Positions 13,763 to 61,691 of a DNA stretch of 64,000 bases are shown piece after piece. The notes under the pieces are model-generated. The model was not told where the DNA came from. It did no database searches and was given only the letters and a program-made list of their open reading frames with translations. Each line of letters opens with the position of its first letter. Position 1 is the first letter of the stretch. The translations under genes and the position numbers were made by a program. This DNA is from Lactiplantibacillus daoliensis (GTDB lineage: Bacteria; Bacillota; Bacilli; Lactobacillales; Lactobacillaceae). The DNA is taken from positions 1 through 64,000 of the forward strand of contig NZ_BJDH01000011.1 of assembly GCF_005405005.1 (NCBI RefSeq), in the 5' to 3' direction.

Positions 13763-13979
13763 CTAAAGATTGAAAATCACAACTTCTGCGCTCCGTCAGT
13801 CAAAATCGGTGTGCTGCGTGGGGACGACGCCAGCCACAGTACGGTCTGGTAGATTGGCGGTTTTGGCAAATTTTCCGGGCGAGGTTCAAGACGTTTTTGA
13901 GGCTTGAACCGGTCCCTCGTCCGCATGTTATCGGCAACAGCCGGAAGCACGTCAATAATTTTTAACTTGTAACTTTCAG
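13763..13979 (-). repeat. Dispersed repeat copy A (internally deleted, about 217 bp)
   Basis: Begins CTAAAGATTGAAA, the terminal repeat also found at copy C. Next come the R-module outer half (CTCCGTCAGTCAAAATCGG) and, after a deletion, part of the L-module with hairpin CTTGAACC / GGTTCAAG, ending near AACTTTCAG. Relative to copies C and F, about 300 bp is missing. On the opposite strand the junction falls at GACCGT, a short sequence present at both break points in copy C. It lies between the hrtA-like stop and that operon's terminator. Flanks ATAAGTAC and ATAAACAC could be a decayed duplication. Confidence 0.82.
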
Positions 13980-16559: not shown

Positions 16560-16600
16560 AAGTTCTTGGTTTTTTATCCTGGGAAGTTTACGAACCAGGC
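16560..16600 (-). ncRNA. preQ1-I-like riboswitch candidate
   Basis: Minus strand, in order: CCTGG (16599-16595), loop TTCGTAAACTTC, CCAGG (16582-16578), then the tail ATAAAAAACCAAG. The five-base-pair hairpin with a ~12-nt loop and an A-rich tail closely copies preQ1-I aptamers such as the B. subtilis queC leader (P1, UUC-starting loop, AUAAAAAACUAA tail). The second helix is not clean here: CUU in the loop with AAG in the tail is the best I see. The genes downstream (nucleoside hydrolase and ECF S) fit. Class variant and ligand are inferred. Confidence 0.58.
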
Positions 16601-16636
16601 CAGCGGCACACCGCTGATTGCATAAATGCATGTCTA

Positions 16637-22330: not shown

Positions 22331-22566
22331 CAAATTGAAAATTACTAACGCCCAACCACTTCCTCAATAATTAGACAATGAAAAACGCGTCGATTACTTG
22401 CCGCTTCCGGTTGTTACTAATAACATGCGGACGAGGAACCGTACCTTGGCTGGCGCCGTCCTCCACAACACATCGACTCTGACTGACAGAGCACTAAATT
22501 TTGACAGAGCCACTTTACACGTGACCGAAGCTGGTAGTACACCTTTGTAAGGTTTTTAATTAATAA
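22331..22566 (+). repeat. Dispersed repeat copy B (internally deleted)
   Basis: Starts about eight bases after the ATPase stop with a decayed terminal repeat (AAATTGAAAATTA). It then has GCTTCCGGTTGTTACTAATA and GCGGACGAGGAACCG, and jumps straight to TACCTTGGCTGGCGCCGTCC and CTCTGACTGACAGAGC. All sequence between the L-module 5' arm and the R-module 3' part is missing. The junction falls at ACCG, a sequence common to both break points in copy C. The right end is eroded near the terminator at 22567. Confidence 0.78.
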
Positions 22567-31850: not shown

Positions 31851-32675
31851 ATGCTCAAACAGTTGCAAACTTTTATCGCCGTTTATGAAACTCGTAACTT
31901 TTCACAGGCAGCAGAACAACTCTTCATTTCACAGCCCACTGTTTCGACGCAAATCAAACAACTGGAAGCGGACTTGGAAACCTCGCTATTTACCCGCAAT
32001 GGTCGGCAAACAATCCAGCCAACAGTCAGCGGCAACTTGCTCTACCAACAAGCTCAGAAATTATTAGAAACCTGGATAGCCACTAAGGTCGCCATTCAAA
32101 CCACCAGTGAGACTGCGCCAATACCTTGTCGGATAGGCGCATCGCATACCACGTCCAGCCTAATTTTGCCAGGACTTCTCACCCAATTGGCACCCCTGAG
32201 TCAGCAATTCAAATTTGAAATCACCCTCGCTAACTCCGCCGACATCTTGACGCAGATGACACAGCACCACTTGGACTTTGGTTTGGTTGAAAAACCATTG
32301 GTGACGGATCATTTAGACCGGCTAGCCTTTGGTCAAGACGAGCTCGTTCACGCTGGCCAACTAACCAGTCCACTGTGGTTATTACGCGAACCCAACTCTG
32401 GCGTACGTCACTATACCAATGCTTATCTCAAAGCACAGAATATCCAGCCGACACAAACAATGATTATTCACAGCAACCAATTAATTGCTGACTTACTAGC
32501 ACAAGGCATTGGTCAGACCATTATTTCAAAGCATGTCTTAGCTCTCAACGTGCCTACTGTAAACTTAGGTCCTAATTACCAACGTCAATTTTTCATGTTA
32601 ACACCAACCACTGTGAAGCCAGCGTTAGTTGGCATTCAAGCCAAGATTTCAAGCTATTTACAAAACTGGGCGTAA
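31851..32675 (+). CDS. LysR-family transcriptional regulator
   Basis: From ATG 31851 a 274-residue protein, slightly short for the family. The N-terminal helix-turn-helix LQTFIAVYETRNFSQAAEQL followed by FISQPTVSTQIKQLE is clear, with a LysR substrate-binding domain from about residue 85. It is divergent from the YeiH-like gene and probably activates it. The TTG at 31833 would extend the protein by six residues over its own ribosome site (GAAAGGCGG), so I reject it. The effector is unknown. Confidence 0.9.
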   Translation: MLKQLQTFIAVYETRNFSQAAEQLFISQPTVSTQIKQLEADLETSLFTRNGRQTIQPTVSGNLLYQQAQKLLETWIATKVAIQTTSETAPIPCRIGASHTTSSLILPGLLTQLAPLSQQFKFEITLANSADILTQMTQHHLDFGLVEKPLVTDHLDRLAFGQDELVHAGQLTSPLWLLREPNSGVRHYTNAYLKAQNIQPTQTMIIHSNQLIADLLAQGIGQTIISKHVLALNVPTVNLGPNYQRQFFMLTPTTVKPALVGIQAKISSYLQNWA

Positions 32676-32749: not shown

Positions 32750-32769
32750 GTCGTAAACTATTTAAGAAT

Positions 32770-33330
32770 CTAAAAGTTGAAAGTCAAAAATTGCCGGTCT
32801 GCACGAGGACAACAACAATCAGGTCATGAAAACTAGTTGAATACTGCTGCTTCCGGTTGTTGCCGATAACATGCGGACGAGGGACCGGTTCAAGCCATAG
32901 AAACGTCTTGAACCTCGCCCAGGAACTTTGCCAAAATCGCAAATCTCCCGGACCGTCCGTGGTGTAAGGCCGGCAAAAGAACGCCGGTCAAACGCCACCT
33001 GCACGTCCGATGCTATCAGCAACAACCTCCAGCTAATCAGTGTTTTTGAGGGAATAAATCAGTTATTTATGCTTAGCGGAGTCAGTCAGAATTAGTGTAC
33101 AGTGTCGGCAATATTAGTCCGCGTTCCTGGCCGACTAATATTGCGGGGCAATTCAAAGACGTGTTTTATCGGCTTTGAATTGAGGCGTCAGACCGTACTT
33201 TGGCTGGCGCCGTCCCCCACAGCACACCGATTCTGACTGATAGAGCACTGAATTTAGTTGAGTCCACTTTAGACGTACTGGTTATTAGTGCTACGACATT
33301 TATGACGTTTTTGAGTCTTTCAATCTTTAG
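32770..33330 (+). repeat. Dispersed repeat copy C: full-length 561-bp element with 8-bp target duplication
   Basis: Starts CTAAAAGTTGAAAGTC and ends with the inverse of CTAAAGATTGAAAGACTC, so the terminal inverted repeats match over about 20 bp with a few changes. TTAAGAAT at 32762-32769 and at 33331-33338 flanks it exactly. The L-module (about 32860-33030) is closed by GGTTGTTGC/GCAACAACC. The R-module (about 33075-33245) is closed by TCAGTCAGAAT/ATTCTGACTGA. No credible ORF. It is a near match to copy F in opposite orientation. I do not recognise the family. Confidence 0.93.
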
Positions 33331-34835
33331 TTAAGAATTTGTTGCCACTGTTGCCAAACCGCAGCGTCACCATAAGCTTCACTACTTTGATAGGCACCGT
33401 CGATTAATCGTTGCTGTCTCTTTGGATTTTCAATCGTCCGTAGTAAACCGGCCGCCAATTGATTGATGGCACCATCTTTGATCAGATAACCATTTTTACC
33501 ATCCTTAATCACATCGCGTGGACCGTAATTCACATCATAAGCGACCACCGGCACACCATGCCCAATGGCTTCAATTAGTGACAACGGCTCTGCATCACTT
33601 TCACCAGCATAAACGTACGCGCCCGCTTGGTCATATACCTGAGTCAAATCAGGTTGATAGCCCGCAAAGGTCACACTATCACCCAGCTTCAACTCAGTGA
33701 CTTGCGTTTTTAGCTGATCAATCGCACCACCGTAGCCATAAATAACTAGCGTTGCATCCGCCAAAGTTCGGTGAACTTGATTGAAAGCCGTGATAATTTG
33801 ATCAACACGCCGGCCAGCATCAACACGCCCGGTATAAATAATTTGATGCGCCTGCCGCTCAGCTAATGATTTCTTCGGTCGAGCTGACTGCGCCGCCGAA
33901 ACGACACCAGCAGAAATGGCATAGATTGGGCGTGCTGGTTGCCCACCTAACCATTTTGACAGATCACTGCGTTGTTGCGCGGTACTCGTAATCAAACCAT
34001 CCAATGACGTCAAATATTGATGAATTCCATAGACGTACGCATTATTCAGATTGGAATAGACTTGGTCGCGTGGATCAATCGCATGTGGCGTTGGTAACCA
34101 CAAGTATTTCTGCGCGGATGTCCGCATGTTGATTACTGGCCACTGTGCGGCTAATGGTCGATCAGCAATAAAGGTATTATGCTCACCATTTTGGCGATTT
34201 AATTCATCCAAAAAGAACCGATACCACTCTTGTTCACCATTAAAGTAATAATCTTGGCCTTCATAATCAATCAGTTTACAGAGTGTCACGACATTGGCAC
34301 CCGCCGAATCATGCCCATAATAGGCTTCAGCAAAACGCGAGCCATCCGGCCGATAGTAAAGATCAGTGATAGCTTCTCCCGCGGGCGAATAAAATTCATC
34401 ACGCGCCTTAAAGCCACGTTCATCGTAATCGGTTCGTTGAACCAGATTACCAAATGGATCAAAAATTTCAATAAAATAGACATGACCAACGGTGCTAGGC
34501 ACGAAATGAACTTTGGCGACTAACCGGTCACCCTCTAGCACTTCGCTCACATTCGGATCGGGTTTGATATTAGTGACCCGCGGAAAATCCAAATCATCAA
34601 TCTTGACAACTTTGCTTTTAAACGTCGTTGTGCCACGGAAAAAGTCGAATAAATTGGCCATCTGATCATCAGCTAACTGGAAGCGGCGCATATTTTGATG
34701 GAGTAACGCATCGAATTGACGAGTGACCATTTTGGCTGGCACCTTGTGGGCTTTAAATAATTGTAGCCGCTTGAATTCTGCATGTTCAACGCCTGAATTC
34801 ATGGCCATTAAATATTGATTGACAAAGAAAATCAT
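33327..34835 (-). CDS. Glycosyltransferase, GtfB/TagE type (GT4 with DUF1975 N-terminal domain)
   Basis: From ATG 34835 a 502-residue cytoplasmic enzyme. The N-terminal half (FFVNQYLMAMNSGVEHAEFKRL onward) is the DUF1975-type domain. The C-terminal half is a GT4 fold with HQIIYTGRVDAGRRVDQII and the nucleotide-sugar site EPLSLIEAIGHGVPVVAYDV. It overlaps the first glycosyltransferase by four bases (ATGA), so they are coupled and probably form a hetero-complex. In L. plantarum, GtfA and GtfB (formerly TagE5/TagE6) are reported to be both needed for protein O-glycosylation; teichoic acid glucosylation is the alternative. Its stop codon is supplied by repeat C. Confidence 0.87.
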   Translation of the reverse strand: MIFFVNQYLMAMNSGVEHAEFKRLQLFKAHKVPAKMVTRQFDALLHQNMRRFQLADDQMANLFDFFRGTTTFKSKVVKIDDLDFPRVTNIKPDPNVSEVLEGDRLVAKVHFVPSTVGHVYFIEIFDPFGNLVQRTDYDERGFKARDEFYSPAGEAITDLYYRPDGSRFAEAYYGHDSAGANVVTLCKLIDYEGQDYYFNGEQEWYRFFLDELNRQNGEHNTFIADRPLAAQWPVINMRTSAQKYLWLPTPHAIDPRDQVYSNLNNAYVYGIHQYLTSLDGLITSTAQQRSDLSKWLGGQPARPIYAISAGVVSAAQSARPKKSLAERQAHQIIYTGRVDAGRRVDQIITAFNQVHRTLADATLVIYGYGGAIDQLKTQVTELKLGDSVTFAGYQPDLTQVYDQAGAYVYAGESDAEPLSLIEAIGHGVPVVAYDVNYGPRDVIKDGKNGYLIKDGAINQLAAGLLRTIENPKRQQRLIDGAYQSSEAYGDAAVWQQWQQILN

Positions 34836-36376
34836 TTGCCCGCCCCACTTTCTGATTGATAGAACTTGGCGGCTGCTTGCATCAATGGTTGCCATTGTTC
34901 CCAAACTGCCGTCGTACTATACCGTTTGGCATCTTGATAAGCTTGTTTACTGTAAGCTTGCAACCGTTTAGGATCACTCAGTAGCTTCGTCATGGCTGTT
35001 GCAAGCGCGTCAATGTCATCGACCGGCACGAGCTCACCATCTTCACCCGCACGAATAATGTCACGGGGGCCATACTTCACATCATAGGCAATCTGTGGAA
35101 TACCGTGGGACTGACCCTCTAACAGCGCTAAGGCAAAGCCTTCCGCTCGTGACGTCAGCATTGCCAATTGCGCATGATCATAAACCGGCGCAATATCCTG
35201 TGTATAATCATTAAAACGAACCGCATCCGTTAGTTTTAGTTCTTTAACCAGTTGCTTCAATTCTTTACCAGTATTCCCATTGGCATAGCCCCAGAAGTCC
35301 AAAGTCGTTGCCGGCAGCTGCGCATGAACTTGCTCAAATGCCCGTAAAACATGACTTTGTTGCTTTTCTTCGGATAGCCGCGCCACAAAGATAATCTTAC
35401 CTGGCGTCCGACTTGACCAGCGTGGGTGCCGGGCCTTAAGCGTTTTATCTGACACAATCCCCACTGGAATCGTGAAAACTGGTGGCTGGCTGCCATAACG
35501 CGCCACAAAGTCGGTCGTTTGTTGCGCCGTTGCTGCAATGACGCCATTCCAGTCCGCCAAATTATTGATCGCATAAGCATAATTAAAGTTCAATGTCGCC
35601 GTTTTAGGATGCGCTGGGTCATTCACGTGATTACTATGCAAATGCATCACCTTGAACGCTGGCGTATGCATTTGCAACGCGGCATAAGCCAATTCATAAG
35701 TTCGATCAATGATAAAGACTGATGCCGGTGTTTCCCGATTCAACTCATCTAGGAAGAACGTGGTCATCTGTTGTTCACCAGTGAATGACCAGTCCTGTCC
35801 CTGATAATTAATAAAGCGATATAAGGAATTTTGCGTCACGTTACGTCGGTTCGGCATATGAAAAGTTTGGTAAACAACTTCCCCAGCCGGATTAAAGACT
35901 TGTTCACTAGCAACTTGGCCGTCAAAAGTGTAAAACTGTTCTAGCCCTTTAAACCCACGGGTATCATACCAATCCGTTTTGACAAGTTTGCCTGTTTGAT
36001 CGTAAGTTTGTACGTTATTAATTTGCTTATAATCGGGCGCAAACGTATTCACCCGCATTAAGAGTTGCTTTTGCTGATAGACGGCAAAATTATGGCCTTC
36101 CGTTACCACCCGCAAATACTTGGGTAACTTTAAGTCGGCAATTGTTAACTTGACCGGCTTAAAGTCGGTTGATTTTTGAATAAAGTCAAATAAATTAATT
36201 TGATTATTTTCCGCAATTCCTGCCGATTTTAACGTTTGATGAAGGGACAGCGAAAAGAAGCGCGTCACAATTTTAGCTGGCTCTTCGTGCTGATTAAATA
36301 GTGCGAGCCGCTTCATTTCAGCATGTTCAATGCCGGACTTTTTCGGATTAATACTCGTATTCACAAAGTAATACAT
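34832..36376 (-). CDS. Glycosyltransferase, GtfA/TagE type (GT4 with DUF1975 N-terminal domain)
   Basis: From ATG 36376 a 514-residue enzyme, paralogous to the next gene: YYFVNTSINPKKSGIEHAEMKRL at the N-terminus, then GKIIFVARLSEEKQQSHVLRA and EGFALALLEGQSHGIPQIAYDV in the sugar-nucleotide domain. The ATG lies seven bases after GAGGGG. The pair faces a secreted Ser/Thr-rich LysM protein on the other strand, the kind of substrate such enzymes modify. It could instead glucosylate polyglycerol- or polyribitol-phosphate teichoic acid. It is first gene of the two-gene unit. Confidence 0.87.
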   Translation of the reverse strand: MYYFVNTSINPKKSGIEHAEMKRLALFNQHEEPAKIVTRFFSLSLHQTLKSAGIAENNQINLFDFIQKSTDFKPVKLTIADLKLPKYLRVVTEGHNFAVYQQKQLLMRVNTFAPDYKQINNVQTYDQTGKLVKTDWYDTRGFKGLEQFYTFDGQVASEQVFNPAGEVVYQTFHMPNRRNVTQNSLYRFINYQGQDWSFTGEQQMTTFFLDELNRETPASVFIIDRTYELAYAALQMHTPAFKVMHLHSNHVNDPAHPKTATLNFNYAYAINNLADWNGVIAATAQQTTDFVARYGSQPPVFTIPVGIVSDKTLKARHPRWSSRTPGKIIFVARLSEEKQQSHVLRAFEQVHAQLPATTLDFWGYANGNTGKELKQLVKELKLTDAVRFNDYTQDIAPVYDHAQLAMLTSRAEGFALALLEGQSHGIPQIAYDVKYGPRDIIRAGEDGELVPVDDIDALATAMTKLLSDPKRLQAYSKQAYQDAKRYSTTAVWEQWQPLMQAAAKFYQSESGAGK

Positions 36377-48892: not shown

Positions 48893-48921
48893 CCTTAAAT
48901 TCATTCACTAGAGGTTAAAAG

Positions 48922-49040
48922 CATCAAAAAATCACAACTATTTTATGACTTGCAACTGTTACATCTAAAGTGGACTCGCCAAAATTCAGCGCACCGTCAA
49001 TCAAAATCAGTGTGCTGTGGGGGAACGGCGTCAATCAAAA
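48922..49040 (-). repeat. Dispersed repeat remnant D2 (inverted relative to D1)
   Basis: Carries the R-module outer end: CTAAAGTGGACTCGCC, GCACCGTCAATCAAAATCAG, TGTGCTGTGGGGGAACGGCG. This matches copy F positions 61218-61290 in the same orientation. The terminal repeat (near GCATCAAAAAATCACAAC) is decayed. D1 and D2 together look like two partial insertions facing each other. Confidence 0.65.
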
Positions 49041-53048: not shown

Positions 53049-53128
53049 GTTGTGGTCCCACTTCCGTTTATTTTATCTCCCAATCATAGCATAAAAGCAG
53101 CCCGCTCACCGGATTCCTTCACTTTAAA

Positions 53129-53514
53129 CTAAAGTTGAAAGATAAAAATCGCTAGTAACTGCCATCATGTCAATAATTAGGGACTGGGTATTAAGTCACA
53201 TTGCCGCTTCCGGTCGCCACTGATCACATGCGGTCGCGGGACCGGGGCAAGCCTGAGGAACGTCTTCCCCCTCGCCCAGAACCCTTGCACAAATCGCAAG
53301 TGTCCCGGGCCGTCCGTGGCGTAACGCCGGCAAAGATCATGCCGACCCAACGCCACCTTCACGACCGATGCTATCAGCGGCAACCTCCAGCTAATTTAAC
53401 TGTTTTTAGGTTAGATTTGGCTTCTGCTTGTCGGAACTAAACCATGTGCCTAATCTGGAAGGGGCTGTTCCCTACATGACAGTATTTATGAACCTTTTTA
53501 GCTTTCAACTGAAG
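53129..53514 (+). repeat. Dispersed repeat copy E1 (L-module with both ends)
   Basis: Starts CTAAAGTTGAAAGATAAAAA and ends with the inverse of CTTCAGTTGAAAGC, a good pair of terminal repeats. A complete L-module is at about 53205-53393, closed by CGGTCG/CGACCG and CACATG/GATG pairings, with hairpins GGGGCAAG/CTTCCCCC and CTTGC/GCAAG. The R-module is missing apart from degenerate sequence. Orientation as copy C. No target duplication is visible. Confidence 0.82.
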
Positions 53515-53639
53515 ATATATGAATAGTGACCATCAATTTTAGTTTAACAGGATTGATAAGTGAAATATTAAACACGAACAGTCAATGAAAACAGCCAAGA
53601 AAGTTCAAAGCACTGCTAACTGTCGCTTTTATTTTAAGA
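53515..53639. other. Spacer between repeat copies E1 and E2
   Basis: About 125 bp of AT-rich sequence between two oppositely oriented copies. It contains AACAGT and ACTGT segments that could pair, but no clear terminator or ORF. Confidence 0.4.
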
Positions 53640-53943
53640 ATCAAATCAAACTTTTTTTACCTTTTTATACCCATTAACCTGGTTGGAGGGCGTCGCTGAT
53701 TGCATCGGGCGTGAAGATCCCGTTAGAGTGGCGCTTTTTGCCGGTCTTACGGGACGGACCGCCCGAGACATTTGCGGCTTTTGCAAAGGTTTCGGGCGAA
53801 GGCCAAGACCGGTCTTCAGGCTTGGCCTGGTCCCACGTCCGCATGCAATCAGTGACGCCCGGAAACAACAACGCTGAGGCCTTTTCATCATCAATGTACT
53901 GTTAAGACGGCATTTATTAGTGATTTTCGTCTTTAAATTTTAG
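53640..53943 (-). repeat. Dispersed repeat copy E2 (diverged L-module, inverted relative to E1)
   Basis: L-module at about 53693-53866, read on the minus strand. It has its own set of paired changes: hairpin AGGCCAAG/CTTGGCCT (53800-53828), outer helix CCCGT/ACGGG, and a closing stem GGGCGTC with CTGATTGCAT against ATGCAATCAG and GACGCCC. The left limit is unclear, and the right end is near TTTAAATTTTAG at 53943. It ends ten bases before the uspA terminator. Confidence 0.75.
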
Positions 53944-53952
53944 CCTTCAAAT

Positions 53953-61004: not shown

Positions 61005-61159
61005 CCACTTTTCATCCCCTTTGGCTGAATACTCATGAAACTATTACCAGTGTTGTACATGAGTGAGTCAAACAACTAATTTGTTTTATCCTAATTGTAC
61101 CCGTCTCGACTGCCGAAAACTAGCGCGTTTATTTTTATATTCTTTCAATTTTTTAATAA

Positions 61160-61688
61160 TTAAAGTTTGAAAGACTCAAAAGCATCACAAATATTGCAGT
61201 AACAGTAACCAGTGCGCCTAAAGTAGACTCACCTAAATTTTAGCGCTCCGTCAGTCAAAACCGGTGTGCTGTGAGGGGACGGCGCCAGCCAAGGTACGGT
61301 CTCAAAGCCGACAAAACACGTCTTTGAATTGCCCCGCGAGATTAGTCAGCCAGGAACGCAGACTAATCTCGCCGACACTGCACACCGATTTCGACTGACT
61401 CCGCTAACCGTAACTAACTGATTGATTGGAGGTCATTGCCGATAGTATCGGACGTGCAGGTGGCGTTTGACCGGCGTTCCTTTTGCCGGCCTTACACCAT
61501 GGACAGCTCGGAGATTTGCGGTCTTGGCAAAGCTTCTGGGCGAGGTTCAAGACGTTTCTTAGGCTTGGACCGGTTCCTCGTCCGCATGCTATCGACAACA
61601 ACCGGAAGTAGCAGTGATCGACTAGTTTTCATTACCTGATTGTTGACTTAATGGTGCAGACCAGTAATTTTCAACTTTCAATTTTTTG
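61160..61688 (-). repeat. Dispersed repeat copy F (near full-length, about 529 bp)
   Basis: Begins TTAAAGTTTGAAAGACTC and ends with TTTTCAACTTTCAATTTTTTG, imperfect terminal repeats. It is an opposite-orientation match to copy C along its length, with R-module hairpin GCGAGATTAGTC/GACTAATCTCGC (61336-61372) and the L-module in the right half. The closing stem of the R-module pairs about 18 of 20 bases. A 19-bp direct repeat with one mismatch (61142-61160 and 61675-61693) flanks or overlaps its ends. No clear 8-bp target duplication. The short frames inside are not credible genes. Confidence 0.92.
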
Positions 61689-61691
61689 ATA

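Follow-up and report, generated by a model that had tools for sequence, protein, structure and literature searches.

The question raised by this locus is what kind of sequence has come to lie between the gene of a LysR-like regulator (stop at 32675) and the gene of a glycosyltransferase-like protein (gtf) on the opposite strand, both of which are named here by resemblance, and by what means it arrived there. In the window, i.e., the whole 64-kb stretch of DNA that was analysed, positions 32770-33330 are occupied by a non-coding element of 561 bp whose inverted ends measure 14 bp; it starts with CTAAAAGTTG at 32770, ends at 33330 with the inverse of CTAAAGATTG and is flanked by TTAAGAAT on both sides. 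A sequence-only reading had proposed these ends, this length and a perfect 8-bp target duplication abutting the element without a gap, all of which are confirmed by the coordinates; in all, the plus strand of the window contains TTAAGAAT four times. The same reading held that the element encodes no credible protein, which remains true, as its longest open reading frame (ORF) is 68 aa and none is credible as a protein. The features of the element and its borders are listed below.

32762-32769, no strand: left copy of the target duplication, TTAAGAAT (from the sequence, BLASTN and the duplication test)
32770-32783, plus strand: left terminal inverted repeat, CTAAAAGTTGAAAG, with a genome consensus of CTAAAGGTTGAAAG followed by TTAAAAATTG
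32845-33035, minus strand: folded module H1, a long basal stem and three hairpins (model built from H2, E=2.4e-12)
33036-33073, no strand: 38-bp spacer separating the 5' ends of the two modules
33074-33250, plus strand: folded module H2, with its hairpins in the same order as in H1
33317-33330, minus strand: right terminal inverted repeat, CTAAAGATTGAAAG in the minus-strand reading, where the consensus goes on with ACTCAAA
33327-33329, minus strand: stop codon TAA of the adjoining 525-aa glycosyltransferase-like ORF (33327-34904), provided by the right end of the element (coordinates read directly)
33331-33338, no strand: right copy of the target duplication, TTAAGAAT, within the 3' end of the glycosyltransferase-like ORF

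Since the stop codon of the gtf-like gene lies inside the right end of the element, the insertion changed the extreme end of that reading frame. The predicted RNA fold of the element is much more stable than those of 100 shuffles, with a z of about -10 on either strand.

The element is very probably a non-autonomous transposon (MITE) that carries the ends of an IS4-family, ISPepr1-type element. In its own genome (G000; 2.63 Mb in 19 contigs), the end pattern has been found at 126 sites, as opposed to 11 for a reversed control, and the pattern is present in 13 of the 21 genomes of the genus. One check proposed at the outset concerned duplications flanking the other copies, and most intact copies do have one: when the innermost end pairs from G000 and the relative G020 were scored, 23 of the 32 copies with at most two mismatches in both ends had a 7-8 bp duplication with no more than one mismatch (15 of 22 in G000 and 8 of 10 in G020), as opposed to 2.0% when flanks of different copies were paired as a control. 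An exact 8-bp duplication was present in 8 of the 32 intact copies (0.1% in the control), and the flanking 8-mers of these copies are 79% A+T. Nine of the 32 fail the duplication test, one of which, L064, has a 9-bp repeat that falls outside it. Under a looser end criterion 27 of 42 pairs match, and across all 119 end pairs from all loci, with nested and IS pairs included, 21 match at 7 or more of 8 positions.

A second proposed check was to look for unoccupied sites in relatives. The lysR-gtf site was compared in 19 other genomes of the genus (L283-L301; the twentieth, G009, gave no such locus), and in 17 of these 19 sister-species loci no trace of the element was detected, either by BLASTN beyond chance or by the covariance model of the modules. 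In one of the 17 (G010), on a contig that starts about 120 bp away, the sequence across the junction is CTATTCAAGAATTTGTTGCC, which is what an unoccupied site should look like. The other two loci contain related sequence, i.e., a derivative of about 120 bp with an H1 fragment near the same position in G013 (L284, between gtf, which ends at 2668, and lysR, at 2871), and a divergent module at 2691-2873 on the minus strand in G007 (L294, 53 bits), 27 bp beyond the end of gtf; these may represent either a decayed, old shared insertion or a favoured site. The lysR-gtf spacers of G011 (L298) and G018 (L299) have a stretch in common, GAAACGTGCGCC...GTCAG...GTTCCGCTTAAC, which is perhaps another small repeat.

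Likely autonomous partners occur in sister species, where ends of the CTAAAGGTTGAAAG type have been found on IS elements in G008, G019, G020, G010 and G017. The element of G008 is 1565 bp long and encodes a 451-aa transposase, that of G020 is 1567 bp long with an open frame of 466 codons, and that of G019 is 1559 bp long with a transposase match split over two frames; the IS elements of G010 and G017 are broken, and G014 and G009 hold fragments. These IS elements of about 1.56 kb and the 561-bp element agree at 13-14 of 14 end bases. The G008 and G020 proteins match the NCBIfam family transpos_IS4_4 at 482 and 460 bits (cut-off 250), as well as Pfam DDE_5 and DDE_Tnp_1, and YGRRWQIECYFKVAK in the IS4-type transposase presumably represents the YREK spacing. 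Duplications flank the IS elements of G019, GACTTTA(T), and G020, ATAGGAG, and none is clear in G008.

The ISPepr1 subgroup has been described as comprising elements of 1500-1600 bp with ends YT-AA-YTT---A, duplications of 7-8 bp and a preference for AT-rich sites (PMC2266710). The sister-species elements are like that subgroup in their size (1.5-1.6 kb for the autonomous copies), their 5'-CT ends, 7 of 8 conserved end bases, their YREK-spaced transposase and their AT-rich 7-8 bp duplications (PMC2266710). Placed by this published description, they would fit the ISPepr1 subgroup of IS4, which likewise fits as the family that the sequence-only reading could not name. Unlike such elements, the 561-bp element lacks a gene, and the IS copies examined showed no modules; because its similarity to the IS elements is confined to about 20 bp at either end, it cannot simply be a deletion derivative of them. 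A 142-bp MITE in G008 (L254:2121-2262), with ends like those of the IS itself and without modules, appears to be an ordinary deletion derivative. Taken together, the IS4-family elements with the same ends in sister species, the duplications around 23 of 32 copies and the 17 of 19 loci without a trace of the element point to a MITE moved in trans, which supports the proposal that this is a MITE-like element mobilized by a transposase encoded elsewhere.

As to the enzyme itself, matches to the G008 transposase are found in 7 of the 21 genomes of the genus, some being mere fragments; in G020 and G010, elements and transposase matches occur in the same genome, with the G010 matches broken. In the own genome, there was no match to this one query protein at E<=0.001, nor did the roughly 100 sites listed of the 126 include a pair of ends spaced by more than about 700 bp, as sought for a transposase-bearing copy. 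What defines a MITE is its ends and the absence of a gene; the assignment therefore holds although no cognate transposase match was found in the own genome, a result that does weaken the claim of present activity in the strain of the window. Relatives of the transposase are carried on 212 plasmid records, mostly at less than 60% identity, while one L. plantarum record reaches 97% over 91%, and a plasmid could therefore be the source. The enzyme of the own genome may have been lost, may have come from a plasmid, may be a more distant relative or may be missing from the assembly. Carriage of the 561-bp element itself by plasmids or phages was considered and set aside, as there was no match in either collection, both of which may omit near relatives; a single scan of viral contigs for a module motif was negative. 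In the proposed mechanism, an ISPepr1-type transposase acting in trans would have bound these ends and placed copies next to genes, and in the own genome the enzyme would now be absent, or would formerly have been plasmid-borne, with the copies mostly decaying.

The related copies that had been proposed elsewhere in the window are real by BLASTN, at 13781-13949, 22382-22522, 48899-49039, 53202-53407, 53684-53870 and 61157-61690. The 61.2-kb copy is the only one near full length, and the rest are fragments or deletion products; the 53.2- and 53.7-kb matches look like the two halves of a single element of about 0.8 kb. The following copies can be delimited.

13763-13979, no strand: internally deleted copy of about 217 bp that retains parts of both modules, with 2 and 4 mismatches in its ends
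22382-22522, plus strand: internally deleted fragment in which part of H1 is joined to part of H2 (BLASTN)
48899-49039, minus strand: fragment of the H2/right-end part (BLASTN)
53128-53950, no strand: divergent related element with two H1-like modules (53202-53393 minus, 53681-53869 plus) and uncertain ends (4 and 5 mismatches of 14)
61160-61688, minus strand: second near-full-length copy with both modules, 80% identity over 569 columns (BLASTN 61157-61690)

The ends of the 61.2-kb copy are degraded (2 and 3 mismatches), with a possible duplication TAATAA seen by eye. The element at 53128-53950, about 0.8 kb long, has two H1-like modules pointing outward across a 287-bp spacer in place of an H1/H2 pair. 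Beyond the window, the own genome contains at least 40 long copies among 116 first-look candidates, and a 320-kb sample searched with the module model gave 28 modules at 19 sites, or one site per 17 kb, from which roughly 150 sites per genome can be extrapolated. Nine of these 19 sites are (-,+) pairs, none is a (+,-) pair and 10 have one module at the threshold used. All copy numbers per genome given here are lower bounds.

While the ends place the element among the MITEs, the novelty lies in what it carries, two large folded modules that form a conserved heterotypic pair and are widespread in Lactobacillaceae with and without these ends. H1 and H2 are distinct, homologous modules of about 180 nt that point outward and have hairpin order and loop motifs in common, such that a covariance model built from H2 alone matches H1 on the opposite strand (E=2.4e-12). 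As H2 itself is matched on its reverse strand too, though more weakly, overlapping matches were merged. Across genera, the fold is maintained through compensatory change. An alignment of 62 modules (G007, G018, other genera and low-copy members of the genus), which was fitted to the model, shows change on both sides at 60 of 63 pairs, and 91.7% of its cells are paired, as opposed to at most 39.7% when the partner is slid. When 32 genus copies of H1 were aligned separately with MAFFT, compensatory changes were found at 32 of 62 predicted pairs (alignments A1 and A2 hold 32 chosen of 69 aligned cores). The description of the element as larger and more structured than most was correct and understated, as its core is a conserved module pair that is also found without these ends.

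Dispersed repeats of bacteria tend to be short and of simple structure. The BOX and RUP repeats of Streptococcus pneumoniae are, like the modules, high-copy, structured intergenic repeats in Lactobacillales. It could be argued that the element is an ordinary MITE or intergenic repeat that has already been described, and that its structure is the usual by-product of inverted repeats. The transcripts of MITEs often fold stably and their location is commonly AT-rich and intergenic (PMC10969869), and IS4-type ends and duplications are unremarkable; however, a by-product would not leave 60 of 63 pairs with compensatory change between genera, nor would it keep two homologous modules as a heterotypic pair, and the absence of an Rfam match speaks against it as well, making this account improbable. 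MITEs such as QMITE2, as outlined in PMC10969869, are like the 561-bp element in being non-coding and intergenic, with inverted ends, duplications and a stable fold, and in being moved in trans, while the 561-bp element is larger and has at its core a conserved, complex module pair that also exists without the ends. A literature search found no paper that apparently describes this repeat, in results swamped partly by the animal 'mite' and with subscription papers mostly outside its scope; a survey of stem-loop families covers L. johnsonii and, in the part consulted, not the plantarum group (PMC2267715). A known RNA family was rejected as an identity for the element, as Rfam 15 gave no match over it at the gathering cut-off (chance-level matches only at E<=5 and E<=1) and no family over eight loci with divergent copies. 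Elsewhere in the window, Rfam finds an ordinary T-box leader (2494-2693) and a PreQ1 riboswitch (16560-16604), both on the minus strand.

In unselected duplex DNA, G.T and A.C mismatches in a stem are expected to be equal in number. In the sense strand of the 69 cores, G.T is found 371 times vs 191 for A.C (H1 171/100, H2 200/91; union of the pairs predicted for both strands), and in the cross-genus set 135 times vs 44. As G.T is commoner than A.C in the sense strand, the fold seems to be important in one particular single strand, and this tolerance of G.T fits both RNA and single-stranded DNA. Eight copies from G020 have the opposite skew (sense G.T 5 vs A.C 12). Mismatches confined to a single copy among the 69 cores lack the skew (G.T 27 vs A.C 38), and singleton changes per column are 0.34 in paired vs 0.57 in unpaired columns of the G000 copies, and 0.075 vs 0.069 in the very similar copies of G020. 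Such figures suggest, without being decisive, that selection acts on the spreading lineage more than on each resident copy.

These data bear on the possibility that the twin module is a pair of bacterial non-coding RNAs, transcribed from the flanks or the spacer and serving the host or the transposon, for which the IS4-type ends are a mere vehicle. The very strong covariation, the preference for G.T in the sense strand and the fewer singletons in paired columns of G000 are in agreement with such a pair, which is nonetheless doubtful, as the paired columns of G020 are not better protected and the single-copy mismatches show no excess of G.T. In the element studied here, moreover, the 38-bp spacer leaves scant space for two promoters. 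The gene context also argues against it, since none of 26 sites lies between divergent genes, whereas 55 of 211 background gaps of at least 60 bp are divergent; of the 26, 9 are in convergent gaps, 17 in tandem gaps and none within genes, on a crude ORF map and a combined site list in which the 53-kb element is entered twice. The copy number of well over 100 in some genomes and the lack of a match in 3 of 21 genus genomes are further points against an RNA pair, as are solitary modules, which occur both sense and antisense to neighbouring ORFs (by eye, crude ORFs). As these solitary modules, judged by eye on the crude ORFs, have no fixed orientation to their neighbours, a cis-regulatory RNA was rejected too.

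The modules extend well beyond the reach of the IS4-type ends. The model matches 18 of the 21 genus genomes and, under stricter filters than those of the genus search, 13 of 121 genomes and 7 of 40 genera in a sample of Lactobacillaceae, and the own genome and one other (G277, one copy, 48.6 bits) in a class-wide sample of 250. Relatives with the module include L. pingfangensis, L. nangangensis, L. xiangfangensis and an uncultured Lactobacillus MAG, and G007 has at least 148 modules (148 of 150 scored places). In a set of 40 loci from G007, G018 and other genera, neighbouring modules separated by less than 500 bp have the outward arrangement (-,+) in 22 cases, (+,+) in 3 and (+,-) in none, and 16 of the 40 loci have one module only. 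Departing from the usual outward layout, two loci of G007 (L319 and L327) each have a pair of like-oriented modules within 200 bp.

A tree was built from 31 loci in 13 genomes picked for their outward pairs, with spacers of 20 to 463 bp (62 of 74 matches, the weaker strand being dropped at 12 overlapping places), and its modules were labelled by their score against the H2 model. In this tree, an H1-type clade of 16 modules (support 0.95) and an H2-type clade of 15 modules (support 0.89) each contain Lactiplantibacillus together with other genera, which makes the unequal pair appear older than the copies in those genera; some modules of G007, G035, G142 and G094 depart from the split. In G007 and the other genera, the conserved sequence stops near GCGGCA (by eye) and the CTAAAGG ends are lacking, with degraded IS4-type ends seen by eye farther out on some copies in G004 and G016. 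G007 has no site of the end pattern, and no duplication above control was detected around 15 pairs of G007 and 7 of other genera. A genome with at least 148 modules, no end pattern and no duplications around its pairs means that IS4-type transposition cannot explain the whole family.

Inverted doublets that are extragenic, fold as single strands and lack duplications around pairs outside the IS4-ended forms would be expected of a true REPIN, moved by a REP-associated Y1 transposase (RAYT). REPs, though, are several times shorter than the modules of about 180 nt, and the Y1_Tnp domain (PF01797) had no match in the module-rich genomes G020, G008, G018, G013, G004 and G016 and was found in G001, G002 and G011, three genomes in which the model of the modules matched nothing. 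RAYT/Y1 was consequently rejected as the mover of the modules, since the distribution of PF01797 does not track theirs in the genus, and a true REPIN is very improbable. The layout is the same as that of REPINs as far as these are described in PMC3116915, in that both are high-copy, extragenic, inverted doublets of a folding unit with single-strand structure, whereas the units here are about 180 nt long with three hairpins, form two distinct paralogues and do not track with Y1.

The twin module is tentatively read, at a probability of roughly 0.45, as a folded nucleic acid of Lactobacillaceae that replicates, is strand-specific and belongs to a class not described before, an H1/H2 pair that spreads on its own account, reaches well over 100 copies in some genomes, has been boxed by IS4-type ends in Lactiplantibacillus and has thus dispersed by two routes or more. 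Before or besides this boxing, the pair would have been a dispersed, self-spreading repeat, like a very large REPIN, and in the least certain step of the mechanism its single-stranded form might be the substrate of some factor that aids its spread, rather than a regulator of genes at each site. A multi-hairpin unit of about 180 nt, in a mostly fixed outward two-part layout and at a few to well over 100 copies per genome, has been kept across genera largely via compensatory change, and the reason why a transposon passenger should need an exact single-strand fold becomes a testable question. The covariance model detects the module family in draft genomes, and ISPepr1-type IS4 elements are the likely autonomous partner with which the movement of the boxed form could be reconstituted.

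Some departures from the common form of the modules have also been seen. In G007, the spacers between modules at L325, L328 and L334 have a partly conserved stretch in common (alignment, by eye). A shorter module form of about 155 nt with a conserved upstream flank is found in G005 (L369, L377, L384 and L391) and G003 (L371), and in G005, which has 13 module matches, it may belong to a longer repeat of that species. In G277, which belongs to the same order and another family, a lone module-like structure (L394, 1501-1655, minus strand, 48.6 bits) lies between ORFs that we take, by resemblance, to be purD and purE.
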